Assembly: GCA_017960565.1 (NCBI GenBank)
Contig: JAGCYY010000001.1
Span: 1-54,755, forward strand
Direction: 5' to 3'
DNA from: a bacterium
GTDB lineage: Bacteria > Bacillota_I > Bacilli_A > Izemoplasmatales > UBA1188
Length of the DNA: 54,755 bases
The notes under the pieces are model-generated. The model was not told where the DNA came from, ran no database searches, and saw only the letters and a program-made list of their open reading frames with translations. The position numbers and the translations under genes are program-made. Shown here one piece after another: positions 42,404 through 53,188 of the stretch; the stretch's first letter is position 1; each line of letters opens with the position of its first letter.

Positions 42404-42634
42404 ATGGAAAAGAATTTAAGTGAATTTAAGATTGGTGAAAAAGGCATCATAAGAAAAGTAGATGCTCTCGGAAAAATAAAAAGAAGATTATTTGATATGG
42501 GTATAACACCAGGCGCAACAATAATGCTAAAAAAAGTTTCACCACTTGGCGATCCTATCGAAGTAACGATAAGAGGATATGAATTATCCCTTAGAAGAGA
42601 TGAAGCATCAAGTGTTATAGTGGAGGCATTATGA
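42404..42634 (+). CDS. feoA: FeoA-type protein, second copy
   Basis: This 76-residue FeoA has the canonical motifs KIGEKGIIRKV, RRLFDMGITPGATIMLKKVSPLGDPIEVTIRGYELSLRRDEA. It is closer to the consensus than the first copy. ATG at 42404 is chosen because AGAGG lies eight bases upstream; an in-frame GTG at 42395 overlaps that site. It overlaps feoB by four bases (ATGA). The first copy keeps less of the consensus and may have a distinct partner surface. Confidence 0.9.
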   Translation: MEKNLSEFKIGEKGIIRKVDALGKIKRRLFDMGITPGATIMLKKVSPLGDPIEVTIRGYELSLRRDEASSVIVEAL

Positions 42635-44829
42635 TTAGAATATGTCTTGCAGGCAATCCTAACTGTGGCAAAACAACCCTATTTAATTCCCTTACAGGAA
42701 GCAGCGCTCACGTTGGGAATTGGCCAGGTGTAACAGTTGAAAAAAGAGAAGGGACATATAAGAAACTGGAAGAAAAAATAGACATTATTGACCTGCCTGG
42801 AATCTATTCAATGTCCCCATATACACCAGAAGAAGTTGTATCAAGAAATTATATATTAGATGAAAATCCAGACTGTGTGATAAACATAGTTGATGCAACA
42901 AATTTAGAAAGAAATCTATATCTAACAACTCAGTTATTAGAAATAGATGTTCCTGTCGTTGTTGCATTAAATATGATTGATCTATTAAAAAAGAATAAAG
43001 AAACAATCGATCTTAAATCATTAGAAAAAATGTTAGGTGTTAAGGTTGTAGAAATAAGTGCGCTAAAAGAAGAAGGCCTTGATAATCTTATGAAAATCGC
43101 CTATCAAGAATCAAAAAACACAAGAAAAGGCTTTACTGTTCTTGAAAAAAGTGAAGTAGGTAGTCTTGTGTTAAAAGCCTTTAATGAACTAAAGAAAACC
43201 GACATCAAGAGTCCTTTATTTCATGCAGTCAAATTAGTTGAGAATGATGAAATAGAGGTTCATGATCACATAGAAGTTCATGAACTAATTGAGAATATTA
43301 AAAATAATCTTCCAAAAGATGATTTTGAGGGTGACTATGAAGCAATTATCGCTAATGAGAGATATGAATATATTTCTCGTAACTTCAAACACACATTTGT
43401 AAGATTTGATGAAGGTCTCACTATATCAGACAAAATTGATAAAGTGTTAACACATAAAATCTTCGCTATTCCTATTTTTCTATTAATAATGTTTATATTA
43501 TTTCATCTAACATTCTCAGAAGATTTATTAGGATTAAACGCTATTTTTAATTTAGAAATATCACAAGAATGGCTTATAAATTTATTTACTGGAATGAAAT
43601 ATGAAAAGATGATAGAAGAAGGAATAGCAACTTTATCTGGTATTCCATCTCCTGGTGTATTCTTACAAAACTGGATGGGATTTGTGACTGGATCACTTAT
43701 AGATATATTCTCATCATTTATGCCAGAAGGAACAGTGATTACATCACTCATAATTGATGGTATTTTAACGGGAATAGATGCTATATTTAGTTTTATCCCT
43801 CAAGTATTATTGTTATATTTATTTGTATCTATCTTAGAAGATAGTGGTTATATGGCTCGTGTTGCCTTTATTATGGACAGAGCGTTTAGAAGATTTGGAT
43901 TATCTGGAAAAGCTTTCATACCTCTTCTTATGGGTTTTGGTTGCAGCGTCCCTGCGATGCTTGCGACCAAAACACTTGAAGATGAAAGAGAACGAGATGT
44001 AACAATCAGAGTAACTCCATTCTTCAGTTGTGGAGCAAAAGCTCCAATTTGGACTCTTCTTGCGGCAGTGGTTATGGGAAAATTCCTAGGAGATATATTT
44101 GTATTTTCTATTTATGTGTTAGGAATCGTAGTCGCTATAGTTGCTGCAATAATAATGAAAGCCTTTAGTAAGAACTATGAAGTACCTCCATTTATTATGG
44201 AACTTCCACAATATCATGCACCACAATTTAAGAATTTAATGGCGCATCTATGGGAAAAACTCAAACATTTCTTATATAAGGCCTCTACAATCATCATGGC
44301 CGCTATAGTAGCTATTTGGTTGCTGTCAAACTTCAGTTTTAAGTTTTGGGAAGGAATGGTCGATGATATTGAACTAAGTATTCTTGCGAAAATCGCAAAA
44401 ATAGTTAGATATATATTCTATCCTTTAGGATTTGGAATGGGTAGTGACGGTTGGAAATATACAGCCGCAACATTCACAGGTTTAATCGCAAAAGAAGATG
44501 TAGTTGGTACAATGGCACAACTAGGATTAATAGAAGGAACAATAAACTTATCGAATGCCGCTATATATTCTTTTGCAGCCTATAATTTATTTACACTTCC
44601 ATGTTTTGCAGCTGTATCAACTGCAAAATCAGAAAGTTCAAAAAAGGGATTTATTAAAACATTAATTTGGTGGATATCACTAAGTTATATAGTTTCACTA
44701 ATTATATACTGGCTTTTTACTTTAATTGAAACAATATTATGGTTAGGTATATTGGTGTTATCTATCTTAATAATATCAGTTATTGTTCTGGGGGTATTTG
44801 TAAGCAGCAAAAGGAGACTAAAGGCATGA
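42631..44829 (+). CDS. feoB: ferrous iron transporter FeoB
   Basis: A 732-residue GTP-dependent Fe(II) transporter. The N-terminal G domain has GNPNCGKTTLFN (G1), DLPGIYSMSP (G3) and NMID (G4). A helical linker follows, then the membrane core from about residue 270 with two gate halves carrying GFGCSVPAMLATKTL and the later AKEDVVGTM. It imports ferrous iron across the cytoplasmic membrane in anoxic habitats. Its TGA overlaps the next small gene. It is regulated by the DtxR-type operators upstream. Confidence 0.95.
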   Translation: MIRICLAGNPNCGKTTLFNSLTGSSAHVGNWPGVTVEKREGTYKKLEEKIDIIDLPGIYSMSPYTPEEVVSRNYILDENPDCVINIVDATNLERNLYLTTQLLEIDVPVVVALNMIDLLKKNKETIDLKSLEKMLGVKVVEISALKEEGLDNLMKIAYQESKNTRKGFTVLEKSEVGSLVLKAFNELKKTDIKSPLFHAVKLVENDEIEVHDHIEVHELIENIKNNLPKDDFEGDYEAIIANERYEYISRNFKHTFVRFDEGLTISDKIDKVLTHKIFAIPIFLLIMFILFHLTFSEDLLGLNAIFNLEISQEWLINLFTGMKYEKMIEEGIATLSGIPSPGVFLQNWMGFVTGSLIDIFSSFMPEGTVITSLIIDGILTGIDAIFSFIPQVLLLYLFVSILEDSGYMARVAFIMDRAFRRFGLSGKAFIPLLMGFGCSVPAMLATKTLEDERERDVTIRVTPFFSCGAKAPIWTLLAAVVMGKFLGDIFVFSIYVLGIVVAIVAAIIMKAFSKNYEVPPFIMELPQYHAPQFKNLMAHLWEKLKHFLYKASTIIMAAIVAIWLLSNFSFKFWEGMVDDIELSILAKIAKIVRYIFYPLGFGMGSDGWKYTAATFTGLIAKEDVVGTMAQLGLIEGTINLSNAAIYSFAAYNLFTLPCFAAVSTAKSESSKKGFIKTLIWWISLSYIVSLIIYWLFTLIETILWLGILVLSILIISVIVLGVFVSSKRRLKA

Positions 44830-45212: not shown

Positions 45213-45401
45213 ATGTCTAGATTTTTAACATCAAGTTTTGAAAAATCATATACATCATTTACTAGCAATGCTAGTTCTTTCTCTTGCAAAAATAGTAGTG
45301 TAATAATTTCTAGAGACACAGTGATTTCTGTGTCTTTTTTATTACGTGTGCTAGTGTTAGTCCTTATCGTCATTATTAGCACACAATTTAATATACTCTA
45401 G
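45213..45401 (+). CDS. branched-chain amino acid leader peptide (attenuator ORF)
   Basis: A 62-codon ORF with GGGAGG seven bases before ATG. The first half is rich in Ser and Thr. Residues 43-55 (LLRVLVLVLIVII) contain 12 Leu/Val/Ile in 13 codons, using seven different codons. It ends 38 bases before an intrinsic terminator (45439-45470), after which the branched-chain importer livJHMGF begins. Control cysteine, tryptophan and other limiting codons are scarce. A leader peptide whose translation senses charged Leu/Val/Ile tRNA is inferred. A small one-helix membrane protein is the alternative reading of the hydrophobic run. Confidence 0.65.
   Translation: MSRFLTSSFEKSYTSFTSNASSFSCKNSSVIISRDTVISVSFLLRVLVLVLIVIISTQFNIL
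45314..45340 (+). terminator. terminator-like hairpin inside the liv leader ORF
   Basis: AGACACAG (45314-45321) pairs with CTGTGTCT (45328-45335) around TGATTT and runs into TTTTTT. It lies at leader codons 34-42, just before the Leu/Val/Ile run. A following ribosome would melt it, so it may pause polymerase until translation catches up. Confidence 0.6.
45346..45384 (+). promoter_or_regulatory. hairpin enclosing the Leu/Val/Ile codons
   Basis: GTGTGCTA (45346-45353) pairs with TAGCACAC (45377-45384). The 23-base loop carries the heart of the branched-chain codon run, so a ribosome stalled there would prevent the hairpin from forming. It is the obvious candidate for the sensing structure of the attenuator. 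Confidence 0.5.
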
Positions 45402-45438: not shown

Positions 45439-45470
45439 AAGCGGTTTTGTGGTAAACAGAACCGCTTTTA
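45439..45470 (+). terminator. leader terminator before livJ
   Basis: AAGCGGTT (45439-45446) pairs with AACCGCTT (45460-45467), followed by TTTAAT. It lies between the leader peptide stop and the livJ ribosome site, where an attenuator must be. Confidence 0.75.
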
Positions 45471-45517: not shown

Positions 45518-46690
45518 ATGAAAAAATGGTTTACAAAAGTGGCTATGGCCGTAGCCGTCACATTAACAGCTGTATTCGCAGCATTCCTAGTAGGATGTCA
45601 AAACAAAAACAAAAATGAATTCGTTATCGGCGTTTCTGGGCCTTTAACAGGACCTGCAGCAGTTTATGGTCTTGCAGTTAAGAACTCTGCTCAAATGGCA
45701 GTAGATGAAATTAATGAAGCTGGTGGTCTTGGTGGCTACAAATTCAAATTCGTTGCTGTAGACGATAAACATGATGCTTCTACAGTTTCAACTAACTATG
45801 CAACACTCGTTAAAGAAGGTATGCAAGTATCTCTTGGCTGTGTTACAACTAAACCTGGTCTAGAATTTAAGAGTCTTTCAAAAGAAGATAATGTATTCTT
45901 TATGACACCTTCTGCAACTGCAGATAATATTCCTGAATTCGCTAATGGTTATCAAATGTGCTTTGCTGATACAAAGCAAGGTACTTATTCAGCTAATTAT
46001 GTAAATGATAATGTTACAACAAGCAACAACAAGATCGGTGTTCTTTACAGAGCTGGTGATGACTATTCTCAAGGTATCTACAACAACTTCAAAAATCAAC
46101 TTGCACCTAAATTCACATTAGTAGAAGCTAGTTTCACAGATGATAACCCTACAGATTTATCATCTCAAGTTGAACTCTTAAAAGATTGTGAATTCATCTT
46201 CCTCCCAATCTATTACACTCCAGCATCTGTATTCATGCTACAAGCTAAAGATAAAGTAAGTGCTGACTGCGTATATTTTGGATGTGATGGTCTAGATGGA
46301 ATCGAATCTTCTGAAGGTTTCGATATCAATTCAATTCCACAAGAAGTATCATATCTTTCACACTTCAATTCAAATGCAACTGAAGGTGCTGCAAAGACTT
46401 ATATCGATAAATACGTAGCTAAATATGGAAAAGACACTCTAAATCAATTTGGTGCATCTGCATATGACTGTGTATATGCAATCTATAATGCAATGAAAGC
46501 AGCTTATGATAAAGATAATTCTAAAGTTACTCCAAACACATCTGCATCAGATATGTGTGAAGTACTAAAAACTGAATTCCAAGGTGGTTTCAGCTATAGT
46601 GGTGTAACTGGTACTAATATAACTTGGGATAGAGATGGCTACGTAAACAAAGCTGCAGTTAAATACGTAGTTAAGGCTAAAAGTAACTAA
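45518..46690 (+). CDS. livJ: branched-chain amino acid ABC transporter, substrate-binding lipoprotein
   Basis: A 390-residue lipoprotein. The signal peptide ends in FLVGC (C26). The mature part is a type I periplasmic-binding fold (VIGVSGPLTGPAAVYG, AVDEINEAGGLGGYKFKFVAVDD). It captures Leu/Ile/Val outside the membrane for LivHMGF. An AAAGGAG site lies about ten bases before ATG. Expression should depend on read-through of the leader terminator upstream. A hairpin between livJ and livH may set a higher level of the binding protein than of the channel. Confidence 0.93.
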   Translation: MKKWFTKVAMAVAVTLTAVFAAFLVGCQNKNKNEFVIGVSGPLTGPAAVYGLAVKNSAQMAVDEINEAGGLGGYKFKFVAVDDKHDASTVSTNYATLVKEGMQVSLGCVTTKPGLEFKSLSKEDNVFFMTPSATADNIPEFANGYQMCFADTKQGTYSANYVNDNVTTSNNKIGVLYRAGDDYSQGIYNNFKNQLAPKFTLVEASFTDDNPTDLSSQVELLKDCEFIFLPIYYTPASVFMLQAKDKVSADCVYFGCDGLDGIESSEGFDINSIPQEVSYLSHFNSNATEGAAKTYIDKYVAKYGKDTLNQFGASAYDCVYAIYNAMKAAYDKDNSKVTPNTSASDMCEVLKTEFQGGFSYSGVTGTNITWDRDGYVNKAAVKYVVKAKSN

Positions 46691-46777
46691 TAATTATTAA
46701 TTCCCATTTTTGGGATATTGTTAAAGTAGAATTAAATTATTCTATAATTCTTTAAAAATCTACTAAAATCACGTTAA

Positions 46778-46802
46778 AGCCGGTAACTAACACTTACCGG
46801 CT
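46778..46802 (+). repeat. inter-cistronic hairpin between livJ and livH
   Basis: AGCCGGTAA (46778-46786) and TTACCGGCT (46794-46802) form a perfect nine-pair stem with loop CTAACAC. No T run follows, so it is not a classical terminator; it could protect the livJ message from 3' decay. A small TCCCA/TGGGA hairpin lies earlier near 46703. Confidence 0.6.
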
Positions 46803-46833
46803 ATTCGTGGCTTTAGGAAAGAGTGGAAGTATT

Positions 46834-47706
46834 ATGAGTTTTATAGTAACGTTTCTAAACGGGCTTAGTCTCGGTGGCGTTTATGCTCTAATAGCGCTTG
46901 GATACACCATGGTTTACGGTATTGCAAAAATGCTTAACTTTGCCCATGGTGATATTATTATGGTTGGAGGATATGTGCTTTTTGTCTTCATATCACTGAC
47001 TGGTCAGCCAATTCTTGCTATAATAATCGCAGCGTTCTTATGTTCACTCCTTGGCATATCCATGGAGAAAGCAGCATATAAACCACTTAGAGGTGCATCA
47101 CCACTTGCGGTATTAATTACAGCGATTGGTGTAAGTTATTTTCTTCAAAGCTTAGCCCAAATAATATTTGGCGCTGCCCCAAAATTTGTTATTATTGCTG
47201 ATCTTGGAGTTATTACATTCGGTGAACTTGTAATCCCCGTATATAGTGTCATAACACTTGCAATCTCAATTCTAATAATGATTGCCTTAAGTTTATTTAT
47301 AAAATTTACAAAGACAGGTCGTGCAATGATAGCTGTATCAGAAGACAAAGCTGCTGCACAGATTATGGGAATAAATGTTAATACCATTATTACAGTTACT
47401 TTCTTAATTGGTTCATTCCTAGCTGCAGTTGCATCTGTATTCTATCTATTAAAAGCACCTAATATTTCACCAACATTTGGTTCTAAGCCTGGTATTAAAG
47501 CATTTACTGCCGCAGTTATCGGTGGCATTGGTTCTATTCCTGGCGCTATGCTTGGTGGATTCCTTCTTGGAATAGTTGAAGTATTTTCTAATAGCGTTCC
47601 CGCAATTGCACCATATACAGACGCTATTGAATTCTTAATTCTCATTGTTATTTTATTAGTACGTCCAACAGGAATACTAGGAAAGAAGAGAAGAGAGAAG
47701 GTATAA
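46834..47706 (+). CDS. livH: branched-chain amino acid ABC transporter, permease LivH
   Basis: A 290-residue inner-membrane permease with about eight helices. The N-terminal GLSLGGVYALIALGYTMVYGIAKMLNFAHGDI block is the LivH signature, and FTAAVIGGIGSIPGAMLGG is the coupling-helix region that docks on LivG/LivF. ATG at 46834 is chosen over an upstream GTG at 46807 because the conserved N terminus begins there. It is followed by livM after three bases. Confidence 0.93.
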   Translation: MSFIVTFLNGLSLGGVYALIALGYTMVYGIAKMLNFAHGDIIMVGGYVLFVFISLTGQPILAIIIAAFLCSLLGISMEKAAYKPLRGASPLAVLITAIGVSYFLQSLAQIIFGAAPKFVIIADLGVITFGELVIPVYSVITLAISILIMIALSLFIKFTKTGRAMIAVSEDKAAAQIMGINVNTIITVTFLIGSFLAAVASVFYLLKAPNISPTFGSKPGIKAFTAAVIGGIGSIPGAMLGGFLLGIVEVFSNSVPAIAPYTDAIEFLILIVILLVRPTGILGKKRREKV

Positions 47707-47709
47707 TTT

Positions 47710-48867
47710 ATGAAAGACAAATCAAAATTTAAACTAAAACATTTCATAAATTATATAGTTATTGGTGCAGCAACTATAATATTCACTATTCTTAATTTTA
47801 CTGGCGTTTTAGGCTTATCAGAACAATTTTTATTAGAAAAAATCACAATAGCGATTATCCTCGCTGTCTCTCTTGGTCTAGTTGTTGGGTTCTTAGGTGA
47901 ATTATCACTAGGTCATGCTGGATTTATGTGCATTGGCGCATATATCGGTGGCAAGATATCAGCACTATTATCATCATCATCACTTGGTACTGGTCTTCCA
48001 AATCTTTTAATATCAATTATTGTTGGTGGCATAGCTGCCGCAATTGCCGGAGTTGCGATTGGACTTCCAGCTTTGAGATTAAAAGGTGATTATCTTGCGA
48101 TTGTAACACTCGCTTTCGGTGAGATTGTAAAAACATTATTCTTAAATTCTAGCGATGAATCATTTGGTGGACCAATCGGTCTTGAAACACCAAGATATGA
48201 TAGAAATCATCTATTCATTATCGGATTTGTGCTTGTACTCGTTATGCTTGCGATAATTCAAAACATCATTAGAAGTAAGCATGGTAGAGCTATCACATCT
48301 ATAAGAGATAGTGAAATTGCCGCTAGAGCAACTGGCATAAATGTAACTAGATATAAATTATTAGTATTCGCACTTTCTGCATTCTTCGCTGGTATTGCTG
48401 GAGTATTATATAGTTTTTCTAACTATCGTGTACAATGTACTAAATTCGATTACAACTATTCAATTGAAATATTAGTTATGGTCGTTCTTGGTGGTATGGG
48501 TAGTGTAAATGGCTCAATATTATCTGCGACACTCATCACATTCCTTCAAGTTCAACTAGCATCTATTCTCACAGGCGATCTTGCGGTTTTACAAAACATA
48601 TTCTATGCTTTAGTATTAATCCTAATCGTCATCTACAACAACGCTCCTGCCCTAAAAGGCTTTAGAGAAACACATAATCTAAAAACATTCTTCAGCAAAC
48701 TATTTAAAAAGAAGAAAGAAGATGTCGACCCGAGTCTTGTGAAAGATGATGAAGCAAAATGGAATCGTATACCGACCAAAATAAATATGGATGAATTATT
48801 ATCTATGGATGTCAAGGTAACTGAATCGACAATGAAGCCTGACAAAGACAAAGGAGGAAGTAGTTAA
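47710..48867 (+). CDS. livM: branched-chain amino acid ABC transporter, permease LivM
   Basis: This 385-residue permease partner of LivH has the family blocks GELSLGHAGFMCIGAYIGG, LPALRLKGDYLAIVTLAFGEI and VVLGGMGSVNGSILSA. The last 60 residues are a charged cytosolic tail (KKKKEDVDPSLVKDDEAKW and on) that most LivM proteins lack or have shorter. The tail is low-complexity and without a recognised motif. It is encoded directly between livH and livG, with gaps of three and two bases. Confidence 0.93.
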   Translation: MKDKSKFKLKHFINYIVIGAATIIFTILNFTGVLGLSEQFLLEKITIAIILAVSLGLVVGFLGELSLGHAGFMCIGAYIGGKISALLSSSSLGTGLPNLLISIIVGGIAAAIAGVAIGLPALRLKGDYLAIVTLAFGEIVKTLFLNSSDESFGGPIGLETPRYDRNHLFIIGFVLVLVMLAIIQNIIRSKHGRAITSIRDSEIAARATGINVTRYKLLVFALSAFFAGIAGVLYSFSNYRVQCTKFDYNYSIEILVMVVLGGMGSVNGSILSATLITFLQVQLASILTGDLAVLQNIFYALVLILIVIYNNAPALKGFRETHNLKTFFSKLFKKKKEDVDPSLVKDDEAKWNRIPTKINMDELLSMDVKVTESTMKPDKDKGGSS

Positions 48868-48869
48868 TT

Positions 48870-49649
48870 ATGGAAAATGTTCTAGAAACTAACAACCTCG
48901 GCATTGCCTTTGGTGGACTTAAGGCTTGTGAAAATGTGAATATCACAATCAAGAAAAATGAAATATATGGATTGATTGGTCCAAATGGTGCCGGTAAAAC
49001 AACTGTCTTCAATATTTTAACTGGTGTATATCAACCAACATGGGGTTCATTTAAGTTAGATGGAGAAGAAATTAAAAACCTTTCACAAGAAAAAATCAAT
49101 CAAAAAGGAATCGCAAGAACTTTCCAAAATATTCGTCTATTTAATAATATGTCTGTAGTAAGAAACGTTATGGTAGGACTACACAATAGAAAAGAATATA
49201 AATGTGGTTTCTTTACATCAGCGCTTCGCCTTCCAAAACATTTTAAAGTTGAAAAAGAAATGCGCAGCAAGGCTAAAGAACTTCTAGATATTTTTGGTCT
49301 ACTTGAAGAGAGAAACAATCTCGCTTGTAATCTCCCTTATGGTAAACAAAGAAAACTAGAAATCGCAAGAGCTCTTGCGACTAATCCAAAACTGCTACTC
49401 CTTGATGAACCAGCAGCTGGCATGAATCCAAATGAAACAATGGAACTTGCGGAGACTATCAAACTTATTCGCGATAAGTTTGATATGACAATACTTTTAA
49501 TTGATCACGATTTAAAGTTTGTATCAGGTCTTTGTGATAGAATAACTGTCCTTAATTTTGGTCAAGTTCTTGCTGAAGGAAACATCAGTGATGTTTTAAA
49601 TAATAAAGACGTTATTGAAGCATATATTGGCAAACAGGAGGAACTATAA
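48870..49649 (+). CDS. livG: branched-chain amino acid ABC transporter, ATPase LivG
   Basis: A 259-residue ATPase with Walker A GPNGAGKTTVFN. LivG-type insert ARTFQNIRLFNNMSVVRNVMVG and Walker B LLLLDEPAAGMNPNET are visible. The signature motif is NLPYGKQRKLEIARAL, the usual variant of LSGGQ in LivG. The H-loop is LLIDHDLKFV. It powers uptake together with LivF on the cytosolic face. livF follows after one base. Confidence 0.94.
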   Translation: MENVLETNNLGIAFGGLKACENVNITIKKNEIYGLIGPNGAGKTTVFNILTGVYQPTWGSFKLDGEEIKNLSQEKINQKGIARTFQNIRLFNNMSVVRNVMVGLHNRKEYKCGFFTSALRLPKHFKVEKEMRSKAKELLDIFGLLEERNNLACNLPYGKQRKLEIARALATNPKLLLLDEPAAGMNPNETMELAETIKLIRDKFDMTILLIDHDLKFVSGLCDRITVLNFGQVLAEGNISDVLNNKDVIEAYIGKQEEL

Positions 49650-49650
49650 A

Positions 49651-50361
49651 ATGGCATTACTTGAAGTTAAAGATATCAGTGTCTATTATGGCGTAATCCA
49701 AGCACTAAAAGGAATTAGTTTTACTGTAGAAGAAGGTGAAATAGTAGCATTAATCGGTGCTAACGGTGCCGGTAAAACAACTACAATGCAATCTATTATG
49801 GGTCTAAATCACCCTAAAACTGGATCAATCTATTATAATGGTGAAAGAATAGATAATATTCCAACACATAAAATTGTAAAAAAAGGAATGACTCAAGTTC
49901 CAGAAGGGCGTCATGTCTTCCAAGAACTCACTGTTTATGAAAATCTCATAATGGGAGCATATACGGTTAAAGATAAAGAAAAAATAAAAGAAGACATTCA
50001 AGAGATGTTCAAACTCTTTCCAAGACTAGAAGAAAGAAGAAATCAAATCGCTGGAACTCTATCTGGTGGTGAACAACAAATGCTCGCTATCTCTCGTGCT
50101 TTAATGAGTCATCCTAAATTATTGCTTCTAGATGAACCATCGATGGGTTTATCACCAATACTCGTAGATGAAGTATTTGATATAATTAAGCATATTCACT
50201 CAGAAGGCACTACAATTCTCGTCGTTGAACAAAACGCTGAAAAAGCTTTATCAATTGCTGATAAAGCATATGTTCTTGAGACTGGAAACATTATTCTTTC
50301 TGGCACTGGTAAAGAACTCAAAAACAATGATGATGTTAAAAAAGCTTATCTAGGTGGATAG
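49651..50361 (+). CDS. livF: branched-chain amino acid ABC transporter, ATPase LivF
   Basis: A 236-residue ATPase with Walker A GANGAGKTTTMQ. The LivF block TQVPEGRHVFQELTVYENL, signature LSGGEQQMLAISRAL and Walker B LLLLDEPSMGLSPIL are present. ATG at 49651 is chosen because AGGAGG lies nine bases upstream within the end of livG, and the family N terminus (MALLEVKDISVYYG) begins there. It closes the liv operon, and a terminator follows five bases later. Confidence 0.94.
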   Translation: MALLEVKDISVYYGVIQALKGISFTVEEGEIVALIGANGAGKTTTMQSIMGLNHPKTGSIYYNGERIDNIPTHKIVKKGMTQVPEGRHVFQELTVYENLIMGAYTVKDKEKIKEDIQEMFKLFPRLEERRNQIAGTLSGGEQQMLAISRALMSHPKLLLLDEPSMGLSPILVDEVFDIIKHIHSEGTTILVVEQNAEKALSIADKAYVLETGNIILSGTGKELKNNDDVKKAYLGG

Positions 50362-50365
50362 AATT

Positions 50366-50388
50366 AAGAGGATTCAATCCTCTTTTTT
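50366..50388 (+). terminator. terminator of the liv operon
   Basis: AAGAGGA (50366-50372) pairs with TCCTCTT (50378-50384) and ends in TTTTTT. It separates the liv operon from the promoter of the methionine transporter. Confidence 0.85.
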
Positions 50389-50419: not shown

Positions 50420-50448
50420 TTGACAGAAATCATCTTTAAGGGTAATAT
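50420..50448 (+). promoter_or_regulatory. promoter of the methionine transporter leader
   Basis: A perfect TTGACA (50420-50425), 17-base spacer and TAATAT (50443-50448). The start would be near 50455, giving a leader of about 200 bases before metN. Confidence 0.82.
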
Positions 50449-50480
50449 ATACACAAAATTAAGAGAAAGGAGAGCTTCTT

Positions 50481-50567
50481 ATGAACAAATATTCATTAAA
50501 ATCTGTAAGAATGATGGATATGATGATGCACATGATGATGTGCTCTTTTAGTGTTGTTCATAAGTAG
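50481..50567 (+). CDS. methionine-rich leader peptide (attenuator ORF)
   Basis: A 28-codon ORF with AAAGGAGA seven bases before ATG. After the start, residues 11-20 read MMDMMMHMMM: eight Met in ten codons, then CSFSVVHK and TAG. The AUG run itself forms a hairpin (GCACAT 50528-50533 with ATGTGC 50538-50543) that a stalled ribosome would block. A terminator follows at 50608-50638, then the methionine importer metNIQ. The design equals classical amino-acid attenuation with methionyl-tRNA as the signal. It is too short and too Met-rich to be a normal protein. Confidence 0.82.
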   Translation: MNKYSLKSVRMMDMMMHMMMCSFSVVHK

Positions 50568-50607
50568 ACTTGCAGACTAATTCTTAATTGTTTTAATCTA
50601 ATTATTG

Positions 50608-50638
50608 AAATCAGTTGGCATAGTCAACTGATTTTTTT
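50608..50638 (+). terminator. leader terminator before metN
   Basis: AATCAGTTG (50609-50617) pairs with CAACTGATT (50625-50633) around GCATAGT, running into TTTTTTT. The segment GACTAATT (about 50573-50580) can pair with AATCAGTT in the 5' arm with one mismatch and is my candidate antiterminator. Confidence 0.85.
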
Positions 50639-50661
50639 GTTATCGAAAGGAATGTGGTTTT

Positions 50662-51654
50662 ATGATTGAGTTAAAAAACCTATCTAAAGTATTTAAAGTT
50701 AATAACGATGAGATAGTTGCTTTAAAGGACATCAATATTAGGATTGATAATGGTGAAATATTTGGCATAATTGGTCTTTCTGGTGCTGGCAAATCGACTC
50801 TTGTAAGATGTATAAATCTTCTAGAAAAACCAACTACTGGAGATGTCATAATTGATGGATTAAATCTTACAAACCTATCAAAAAAAGAATTATTAAAGAT
50901 GAGAAGAAACATCGGAATGATCTTTCAAAACTTTAACCTTCTAGAACAATTAAATGTTATTGATAATGTCTGTTTTCCATTGTCATTATTAAAGATATCG
51001 AAAGAAACGCAAAAAGAGAAAGCTGTTGAATTATTAAAGCTTGTTGGGCTTGAACATCGGCTATCTTATTATCCATCACAGCTATCAGGTGGTGAAAAAC
51101 AGCGTGTTGCAATCGCAAGAGCCCTTGCTACAAACCCAAAATACCTCTTATGTGATGAAGCGACCTCAGCACTAGACCCAAACAATACTCAGTCGATTCT
51201 ATCTTTATTAAAAGAAATCAATGAAAAGATGAATGTTACCATCGTTGTAATAACTCATGAAATGAAGGTAATTGAAAAGATATGCGACAGAGTCGCTGTC
51301 ATTGATAGTTCTTCAATAGTCGAAATAGGGAAAGTATCAGAAGTATTCACAAGCCCAAAAACAATAATCACAAAAGAATTAGTTCTTCCAGAATCAACAA
51401 AAATTAATTTTACTGGAAATCTTGGGCGCAAAATTAGACTCATATTTGATGGCACTTCTACAGAAGAATCAATTCTTGCAAAACTCATACTTGAAACACA
51501 AACCCCTATCAACATTCTCTATGCTGATACAAAAGAATTAGAAGGAGTTACTTATGGACATATGATTGTAGAATTACCAGAGAATAAAAAATCAGAAGAA
51601 AAGATAATCACATGGCTAAAACACCATAACATCAACTACAAGGAGGAATTATAA
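50662..51654 (+). CDS. metN: methionine ABC transporter, ATP-binding protein
   Basis: This 330-residue ATPase has Walker A GLSGAGKSTLVRC and signature LSGGEKQRVAIARAL. Walker B is YLLCDEATSALDP. A C-terminal regulatory NIL domain follows (about 255-330), the region that binds methionine and inhibits transport in E. coli MetN. It pairs with MetI and MetQ encoded next. Two methionine feedback layers are thus likely: attenuation at the leader and allostery at the NIL domain. Confidence 0.94.
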   Translation: MIELKNLSKVFKVNNDEIVALKDINIRIDNGEIFGIIGLSGAGKSTLVRCINLLEKPTTGDVIIDGLNLTNLSKKELLKMRRNIGMIFQNFNLLEQLNVIDNVCFPLSLLKISKETQKEKAVELLKLVGLEHRLSYYPSQLSGGEKQRVAIARALATNPKYLLCDEATSALDPNNTQSILSLLKEINEKMNVTIVVITHEMKVIEKICDRVAVIDSSSIVEIGKVSEVFTSPKTIITKELVLPESTKINFTGNLGRKIRLIFDGTSTEESILAKLILETQTPINILYADTKELEGVTYGHMIVELPENKKSEEKIITWLKHHNINYKEEL

Positions 51655-51658
51655 ACAT

Positions 51659-52354
51659 ATGTTTTTATCAGAAATGTTAAGAGATTTATGGAATAATGGA
51701 CTTATTCAAATAGGCATTTTAGAAACGATATATATGACACTCCTTTCAAGTTTAATTGCCTACATTATTGGCCTTCCTCTCGGAGTTATCCTAAATATCA
51801 CAGATAAAGATGGGTTAACTCCAAATAAAGTAATCAACTCTATTTTAGGGTTTATAGTAAATATATTTAGATCTATTCCGTTCATCATTTTGATGGTTGC
51901 GATGCTTCCAGTTGCGAAAGCTATTGTTGGAACATCGCTTGGAAATCGAGCGATGATAGTGATGCTTGTGATTGCGGCAGCCCCATATATCGCAAGAGTG
52001 GTTGAATCATCACTAAAAGAGGTAGATTATGGAAAGATTGAGGCAGCAAAATCGATGGGTGCAACTGACCTTCAAATCATCTTTAAAGTAATTCTTAGAG
52101 AATCTATCCCATCACTTACGACTGGTGCAGTAATCGCAACTGTCACAATCCTTGGCTATTCCGCAATGGCAAGCACCATAGGTGGCACAGGTCTTGGACA
52201 GATTGCAATAATTTACGGCCATCAAAGATCAAATGCCGATATCACTTGGTTATGTGTGCTTCTCATGGTCGTGATTGTTCAAATAATCCAAGAAGTAGGT
52301 ATATATATCTCAAGAAAATCAGATAAAAGAATTTTAAAAAGTAGAAATAATTAA
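51659..52354 (+). CDS. metI: methionine ABC transporter, permease
   Basis: A 231-residue permease with five membrane helices. The coupling-loop motif EAAKSMGATDLQIIFKVILRESIPSL is the MetI signature. It lies four bases after metN with AGGAGG twelve bases upstream of its ATG. It forms the channel for methionine import. Confidence 0.93.
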   Translation: MFLSEMLRDLWNNGLIQIGILETIYMTLLSSLIAYIIGLPLGVILNITDKDGLTPNKVINSILGFIVNIFRSIPFIILMVAMLPVAKAIVGTSLGNRAMIVMLVIAAAPYIARVVESSLKEVDYGKIEAAKSMGATDLQIIFKVILRESIPSLTTGAVIATVTILGYSAMASTIGGTGLGQIAIIYGHQRSNADITWLCVLLMVVIVQIIQEVGIYISRKSDKRILKSRNN

Positions 52355-52372: not shown

Positions 52373-53188
52373 ATGAAAAAAACATTAGTTGCAGTATTCT
52401 TATTCATTTTATCAATTGTGATTCTTACAGGTTGCAATAACAACAATGACAAAGTCATTAAAGTTGGAGCTAGTTCAACTCCACACGCTGAAATCCTCGA
52501 GCAAGTTAAATCAGCACTAAAAGAAAAAGGCTATGAATTAAAAATAGTCGTATATGATGATTACATCCTCCCAAACAAAGCTCTCACAGACAAAGAACTA
52601 GATGCTAACTATTTTCAACATACACCATATTTAAATAGCTATAACGCCGCAAACAATACAAACATCGTATCAGCATTTAAAGTCCATTATGAACCATTTG
52701 GCCTATATGGTAATGGCGTATCATCTATTCAGAATATCCCATCTGGCGCTAAAATAATTATTCCAGCTGATGATTCAAATGAGACGAGAGCCTTGCTTCT
52801 TTTAGCACAAGAAGGATTAATAACTCTAAAAGATAATAAAACAGTTGAAACAGGTATCACAACACTCGATATTCTCGATAATAAAGGATATGATGTAGTC
52901 GCAGTTCAAGCGGACAGTGTTCCTGCACAACTTAAAAATTCAAACACTGGTACAGTCGCAGTAATAAATGGCAACTATGCTCTCCAAGCTAAATTAAATA
53001 TCGCTGATGCCCTCGCAATTGAAGACGCTAGCGGAGATGCAGCACAGTACTATGCCAATATAATCGCAGTTAATAGTGGCGATGAAGACAGCCCTAAGAT
53101 TAAAGCGTTAGTGGATGCTTTAAAGAAAGAAGCAGTAAAGACATATATTACTGAAACTTATAATGGTGCAGTAGTTCCAATCTTCTAA
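52373..53188 (+). CDS. metQ: methionine-binding lipoprotein
   Basis: A 271-residue NlpA/MetQ lipoprotein with lipobox LTGC (C21). The family blocks IKVGASSTPHAEILEQVK, DELDANYFQHTPYLN (here KELDANYFQHTPYL) and PADDSNETRALLLLAQEGLI are present. It captures methionine outside and delivers it to MetNI. It is the last gene of the unit and is followed by a terminator. Ligands other than methionine, such as methionine sulfoxide, cannot be excluded. Confidence 0.93.
   Translation: MKKTLVAVFLFILSIVILTGCNNNNDKVIKVGASSTPHAEILEQVKSALKEKGYELKIVVYDDYILPNKALTDKELDANYFQHTPYLNSYNAANNTNIVSAFKVHYEPFGLYGNGVSSIQNIPSGAKIIIPADDSNETRALLLLAQEGLITLKDNKTVETGITTLDILDNKGYDVVAVQADSVPAQLKNSNTGTVAVINGNYALQAKLNIADALAIEDASGDAAQYYANIIAVNSGDEDSPKIKALVDALKKEAVKTYITETYNGAVVPIF

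Follow-up and report, generated by a model that had tools for sequence, protein, structure and literature searches.

A candidate methionine-codon attenuator ahead of metNIQ in a member of the Izemoplasmatales, and its relatives in Clostridia

Methionine genes in Bacillota are usually described as being under the control of S-box or T-box RNAs. The stretch of DNA analyzed here, 54,755 nucleotides long and called the window in what follows, carries a predicted methionine importer operon, metNIQ, and its upstream region raises the question of how this operon is regulated. An earlier note, made from the sequence alone, had stated that no S-box or T-box is recognizable before metN, and this was borne out: the leader gave no match to any relevant Rfam family, S-box (RF00162) and T-box (RF00230) included, even at relaxed thresholds. 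No S-box was found anywhere in the genome of the window (G000), and the seven T-boxes of this genome all lie away from the metN leader.

Layout of the metNIQ leader

The region upstream of metN contains, in this order, a promoter, a Shine-Dalgarno (SD) site, an ORF of 28 codons, a hairpin made from the AUG run, and an intrinsic terminator. The features of the locus are as follows.

50366 to 50384, + strand: intrinsic terminator that ends the preceding operon, for a branched-chain amino acid transporter (terminator scan)
50420 to 50448, + strand: promoter TTGACA-17-TAATAT, 10 of 12 consensus positions (pattern match only)
50466 to 50472, + strand: Shine-Dalgarno AAAGGAG of the leader ORF, 8 nt ahead of the ATG at 50481 (sequence)
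50481 to 50567, + strand: leader ORF, 28 codons, MNKYSLKSVRMMDMMMHMMMCSFSVVHK and stop (ORF translation; 47 metN loci altogether have a Met-run ORF)
50511 to 50540, + strand: putative control codons 11 to 20, AUG in 8 of 10 (sequence; counterpart run in L002, MASFSVNKMMVMMMMCMMMNRAFSIS)
50528 to 50543, + strand: AUG-run hairpin GCACAT-GATG-ATGTGC, a candidate for pausing (L002 folds one at the same place)
50584 to 50597, + strand: predicted antiterminator 5' arm, pairing with 50604 to 50618 (MFE structure)
50604 to 50618, + strand: predicted antiterminator 3' arm, overlapping the terminator 5' arm (MFE structure)
50607 to 50638, + strand: intrinsic terminator, GAAATCAGTTGGC-ATA-GTCAACTGATTTT plus T tail (terminator scan, -14.1 kcal/mol)
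50662 to 51654, + strand: metN, ATPase of a methionine ABC importer (NCBIfam TIGR02314, E 4e-107, below curated cut-off; clusters with Clostridia MetN)
51659 to 52354, + strand: metI, permease (NCBIfam NF008049, E 2e-58, below curated cut-off)
52373 to 53188, + strand: metQ, substrate-binding lipoprotein (NCBIfam TIGR00363, E 7e-40, below curated cut-off)

The gene names are those of the best NCBIfam matches (MetN, MetI, and the MetQ/NlpA family), none of which reaches its curated cut-off. The methionine synthase families PF02574 and PF01717 were not found in any of the seven genomes of the window's genus, in a search with positive controls, and import is therefore probably the main source of methionine.

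The terminator at 50366 to 50384 divides two transcription units, the branched-chain transporter operon and the metN unit, and the promoter of the latter consists of TTGACA (50420 to 50425), a 17-nt spacer, and TAATAT (50443 to 50448). Codons 11 to 20 of the leader ORF read M M D M M M H M M M, exactly the eight Met in ten consecutive codons that the earlier note had counted, and the consensus promoter, the good ribosome site, the AUG-run hairpin, and the downstream terminator that it had described were likewise located. The terminator stem (50607 to 50635) has 13 pairs and its T tail ends at 50638, ahead of metN. Thus a short ORF with a ribosome site stands between promoter and operon, an intrinsic terminator stands between this ORF and the first gene, both arrangements being conserved in relatives, and the Met codons precede the genes of a methionine importer, so that the codon run matches the imported substrate as had been claimed. 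When the whole window was scanned on both strands for an SD site together with a residue run and a terminator, three places were found, and only this one has Met.

We consider it very probable (about 0.87) that the metNIQ leader senses methionine by the decoding of Met codons and acts as a ribosome-mediated transcription attenuator. RNA polymerase would start near 50455, followed by a ribosome translating the leader ORF. With ample charged elongator Met-tRNA, the ribosome would pass the AUG run and reach the stop codon, where it would prevent the antiterminator, so that the hairpin at 50607 to 50635 could form and transcription would end before metN. With charged Met-tRNA scarce, the ribosome would halt within the AUG run, and the RNA downstream of it would fold so that the terminator 5' arm is taken up in an antiterminator, leaving metNIQ to be transcribed. 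Translation of the leader, stalling, and read-through are steps that we infer, as is a role in pausing for the hairpin at 50528 to 50543. What sequence and comparison show is the parts, their conservation, the match of codons to substrate, and the replacement of the leader by an S-box or T-box at other metN genes.

Met-codon leaders at other metN loci

An SD-preceded ORF of 8 to 40 amino acids that has three or more internal Met within a stretch of 8 codons was found in 17 of 123 metN upstream regions. The same pattern appeared in 6 of 4920 dinucleotide shuffles, that is, 0.15 expected versus 17 observed, and Met-run ORFs upstream of metN exceed chance. The collected set, with the window's leader included, comprises 48 leaders at 47 metN loci. 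The earlier note had proposed that in related genomes the Met run, the SD site, and the terminator should be kept while the rest drifts, and the set behaves in this way, with the peptide outside the Met run drifting from leader to leader. Met makes up 19.4% and Cys 6.3% of the internal residues, and 251 internal AUGs are in frame versus 8 out of frame. The terminator starts 14 to 50 nt past the leader stop codon in 46 of the 48 leaders; L073/L074, where it lies 90 nt downstream, and L035/L044, where the Met runs are sparse, are counted as weaker cases.

Within the window's genus, metN of the window's kind is present in two of the seven genomes, both times with a Met leader. In the second of these (G002, locus L002) the leader is MASFSVNKMMVMMMMCMMMNRAFSIS, with run, SD site, and terminator kept and different flanks. 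Among the leaders from Clostridia MAGs are MRNCIANMMMGMMYMLRMCMMCRAQNAAVLGSVSI (L018), MVVRCSMAMMTMCMCMCENMYNFCRAVR (L027), and MRIRRQNSMMMGMMMCMATMRMMMRAQNAGLSHIVSE (L189). In the family of the L018 genome, Met leaders stand at 12 of the 14 closest MetN relatives (L182, L184-L196), and the upstream regions of the other two close relatives, L184 and L192, hold none. Genome G472 has two metN operons with one leader apiece. The leaders that we call SRA type have MMRM or MVMCMC followed by SRA (L020, L026, L036, L068, L174-L181).

A covariance model built from 11 SRA-type leaders was searched in 20 and then 297 genomes (about 315 in all). At E<1e-10 every place found precedes metN, and SRA-type leaders at other genes, which had been considered, received no strong match. 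The weak matches that were inspected are devoid of a Met run, except for the metN leaders of G002, G468, and G471 and the second tandem leader of G484. Tandem pairs of Met leaders ahead of a single metN were also observed at L020 (2638 to 2937) and L062 (2697 to 3000), each leader having a hairpin and T run behind it.

Predicted folding and ribosome position

For the folding test a ribosome was placed with each codon in turn in the A site, its 3' edge 14 nt from the first base of that codon, and the free RNA was folded. With the first Met codons in the A site, the terminator probability is about 0.0-0.4 in many SRA-type leaders, and it rises above 0.8 in most of them once the ribosome is past these codons (0.00-0.03 then 0.97 in L068; 0.04 then 0.91 in L062a). 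A segment inside the ORF just past the run, CCCGRGC, pairs with the terminator 5' arm, GCTCGGG. In this antiterminator helix 97.4% of cells are paired, versus 1-56% when the helix is slid; its covariation is not significant against shuffles (120 of 500 reach the value) because most columns never vary.

In the other types the full-length terminator is usually still favored. Until the 3' arm of the terminator has been made, a ribosome at the run leaves the 5' arm sequestered, whereas one that has reached the stop codon leaves it free; the sequestration falls from 0.68 to 0.00 in L002 and from 0.72 to 0.03 in L027. The first 24 leaders, compared with versions in which the sequence lying between the run and the terminator had been shuffled, gave a Fisher statistic of 109.8 (df 48), and in 24 leaders collected after the test had been fixed the sequestration fell from 0.82 to 0.23 (p 2e-7), kinship among the leaders making the p values optimistic in both cases. 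The choice of fold is thus predicted to be set by ribosome position in most relatives.

The claim that all parts of an attenuator are present in the window stands for the parts themselves, while a ribosome-controlled switch could be obtained by folding only in relatives. An antiterminator overlapping the terminator 5' arm is predicted here too, weak in the window and stronger in relatives, and it begins 16 nt past the leader stop codon. With the ribosome edge set at 14 nt, sequestration goes from 0.78 with the ribosome at the Met run to 0.80 once it is at the stop codon, 73% of shuffles do as well as the window's leader, and the antiterminator loosens only with the edge 20-24 nt out. A position-dependent switch is consequently not demonstrable by folding for this AU-rich leader, nor for those of L019, L103, L106, and L195. 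A switch like that of L002 was also considered for the window and rejected, since the pairing of the corresponding GCAGACTAATTC segment with the terminator arm is weak, at about -4 to -6 kcal/mol versus -14.4 kcal/mol in L002. By analogy, the switch in the window would rest on the layout shared with relatives and not on its own folding.

This result gives some room to the view that the Met-codon leader works by another logic, such as translational protection of the mRNA, access of Rho, or sensing of initiation and fMet, with the terminator governed differently. AUG triplets can serve as start codons, and a shortage of Met also lowers initiation, which would suit such a mechanism. We nevertheless regard it as unlikely, given that an intrinsic terminator follows close past the stop codon in nearly all relatives and that the folds switch with ribosome position in most of them. 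Attenuation by decoding of Met codons in turn makes a puzzle testable: a shortage of Met reduces both elongator Met-tRNA and initiator fMet-tRNA, and a Met sensor whose own translation starts with Met must function while initiation falls.

S-box and T-box sites, origin, and precedents

At more distant metN genes the leader site is occupied by Rfam-recognized RNAs, T-boxes at L004, L014, L029, L030, L038, L056, and many others, and S-boxes at L005, L008-L010, L012, L043, and L110; in other families of the window's own order, too, metN is controlled by such RNAs. Four loci of this order (L006, L013, L015, L016) have S-box-like metN leaders below the Rfam gathering score, and neighboring S-boxes lie just above it (46.6 bits at L008, 49.0 bits at L009). 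The sub-threshold leaders are possibly a divergent form of the SAM riboswitch.

That such RNAs take the place of the ORF elsewhere also bears on the idea that the product of the ORF is a small Met-rich protein with a function of its own, such as the binding of copper or some other metal by its Met, His, and Cys residues, and that the ORF is co-transcribed with metNIQ by chance. The stretch is indeed rich in these residues, with Cys next to Met in 31 of the 48 leaders. However, only the Met run is conserved in peptides of 12 to 39 amino acids, which have no NCBIfam match and no conserved protein body, and the intrinsic terminator and metN always lie behind the ORF, leaving this idea improbable. 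Least credible, and close to negligible, is control of metN by an unrecognized SAM- or tRNA-binding RNA of S-box or T-box kind with an incidental Met run, which the S-boxes and T-boxes at metN in other families of the order and the seven T-boxes elsewhere in the genome would favor but which Met runs far above shuffles, a genome free of S-boxes, and a leader without either RNA at relaxed thresholds speak against.

Where Cys adjoins Met, it does so as in MCMC or MMCM. Across the 48 leaders, [CR]A often stands right after the run, a motif that also appears as FMCAF in L103 and as RMCAF in the Streptomyces lividans leader discussed below. The Cys could mean sensing of both Met and Cys, or a constraint from RNA pairing.

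In a quick MetN tree the window and G002 belong to a group of 45 rows, of which 38 are labeled as having Met leaders, with moderate branch support (SH-aLRT 82-87) and organism names taken from public records. Two further rows, L024 and L025, duplicate the genes of L154 and L155, whose leader lay outside the 400 nt first examined. Because the window and G002 nest in this group, and the metN genes of other families in the window's order are far off and mostly have S-boxes, the tree suggests that metNIQ entered the window's genus from Clostridia together with its leader. The Met leaders of L107, L103/L106, L073/L074, L211, and L035/L044/L193 fall outside the group, which implies further origins or an older one. 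As a tentative overall reading, somewhat less likely to be right than wrong in its entirety, Met-codon leaders may be widespread, may spread horizontally, and may stand in for S-box and T-box RNAs: they would be the ordinary means of controlling metNIQ in a large uncultured clade of Clostridia, would have moved with the operon into the window's genus and arisen several more times elsewhere, and would partly act as a sensor of the sulfur amino acids Met and Cys. Conserved at dozens of metNIQ loci, a Met-codon attenuator would be a third solution beside S-box and T-box, and suggests how uncultured gut bacteria may control Met uptake, including a genus without a recognizable methionine synthase. 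S-box and T-box leaders at metN share the site and the genes in related bacteria but recognize SAM or uncharged tRNA directly and need no translated leader.

The closest precedent is from S. lividans, where a leader, MSTTSDRTPATEATTTPGARCMCRRMCAF, listed in 2021 as 'metL' before metNIQ, was proposed to be an attenuator (PMC8079986). Like the window's leader it is a short ORF with Met (and Cys) codons ahead of metNIQ; unlike the leaders described here, it has a leaderless start, three Met codons, and no clear intrinsic terminator, and it comes from one genome without comparative support (PMC8079986), whereas the present set has SD sites, dense runs, terminators, and predicted antiterminators at 47 loci. 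The statement of the earlier note that such a system is undescribed must accordingly be narrowed, since metL precedes it (PMC8079986). For Bacillota it agrees with the open-access literature searched, in which no Met leader peptide was found; subscription papers were mostly outside this scope and an earlier report is possible.

His leader peptides are known in Bacillota (PMC2965389, PMC9413887), as is a leucine-rich attenuator peptide in Staphylococcus aureus (PMC5794164). These too are leader-peptide attenuators, some replacing T-boxes (PMC2965389, PMC9413887, PMC5794164), but they concern other amino acids and genes, and no Met example was found among them. With the trp and his attenuators of Proteobacteria the present leaders share control codons, a terminator between ORF and operon, alternative folds, and the putative logic by which a stall means read-through; they differ in sensing Met, and the SRA type also in having one segment within the ORF that pairs with the terminator 5' arm, so that a ribosome on reaching the stop codon is positioned within the antiterminator. 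For Mycobacterium tuberculosis ilvB1, a ribosome at the stop codon has been proposed to mask an antiterminator and allow the terminator, a stalled ribosome leaving the antiterminator free (PMC13236596). This logic of stop-codon masking is shared, while the codons there are branched-chain ones and the operon is biosynthetic (PMC13236596).

Several other small ORFs were observed. Just upstream of the branched-chain amino acid ABC transporter (45518 to 50361), the window contains an SD-preceded ORF at 45213 to 45401, MSRFLTSSFEKSYTSFTSNASSFSCKNSSVIISRDTVISVSFLLRVLVLVLIVIISTQFNIL. This ORF contains a Leu/Val/Ile run (LLRVLVLVLIVII), has a terminator at 45439 to 45467 behind it, and is a candidate second leader-peptide attenuator; a further terminator-like hairpin lies within the ORF at 45312 to 45337. 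At L206 and L210, from two related genomes, a conserved short SD-preceded Arg-rich ORF, MGIRTRRSRSHERM, stands just before metN and has no Met run. From 44826 onwards on the + strand of the window, directly behind a gene of 732 amino acids (42631 to 44829), there is a small hydrophobic Cys-rich ORF, MIWYDYLVILLALILIFTPIILKIKNKEKSCSCECKNCTKECMTNFKKYLKENTK, which we take to resemble a FeoB-associated small membrane protein.
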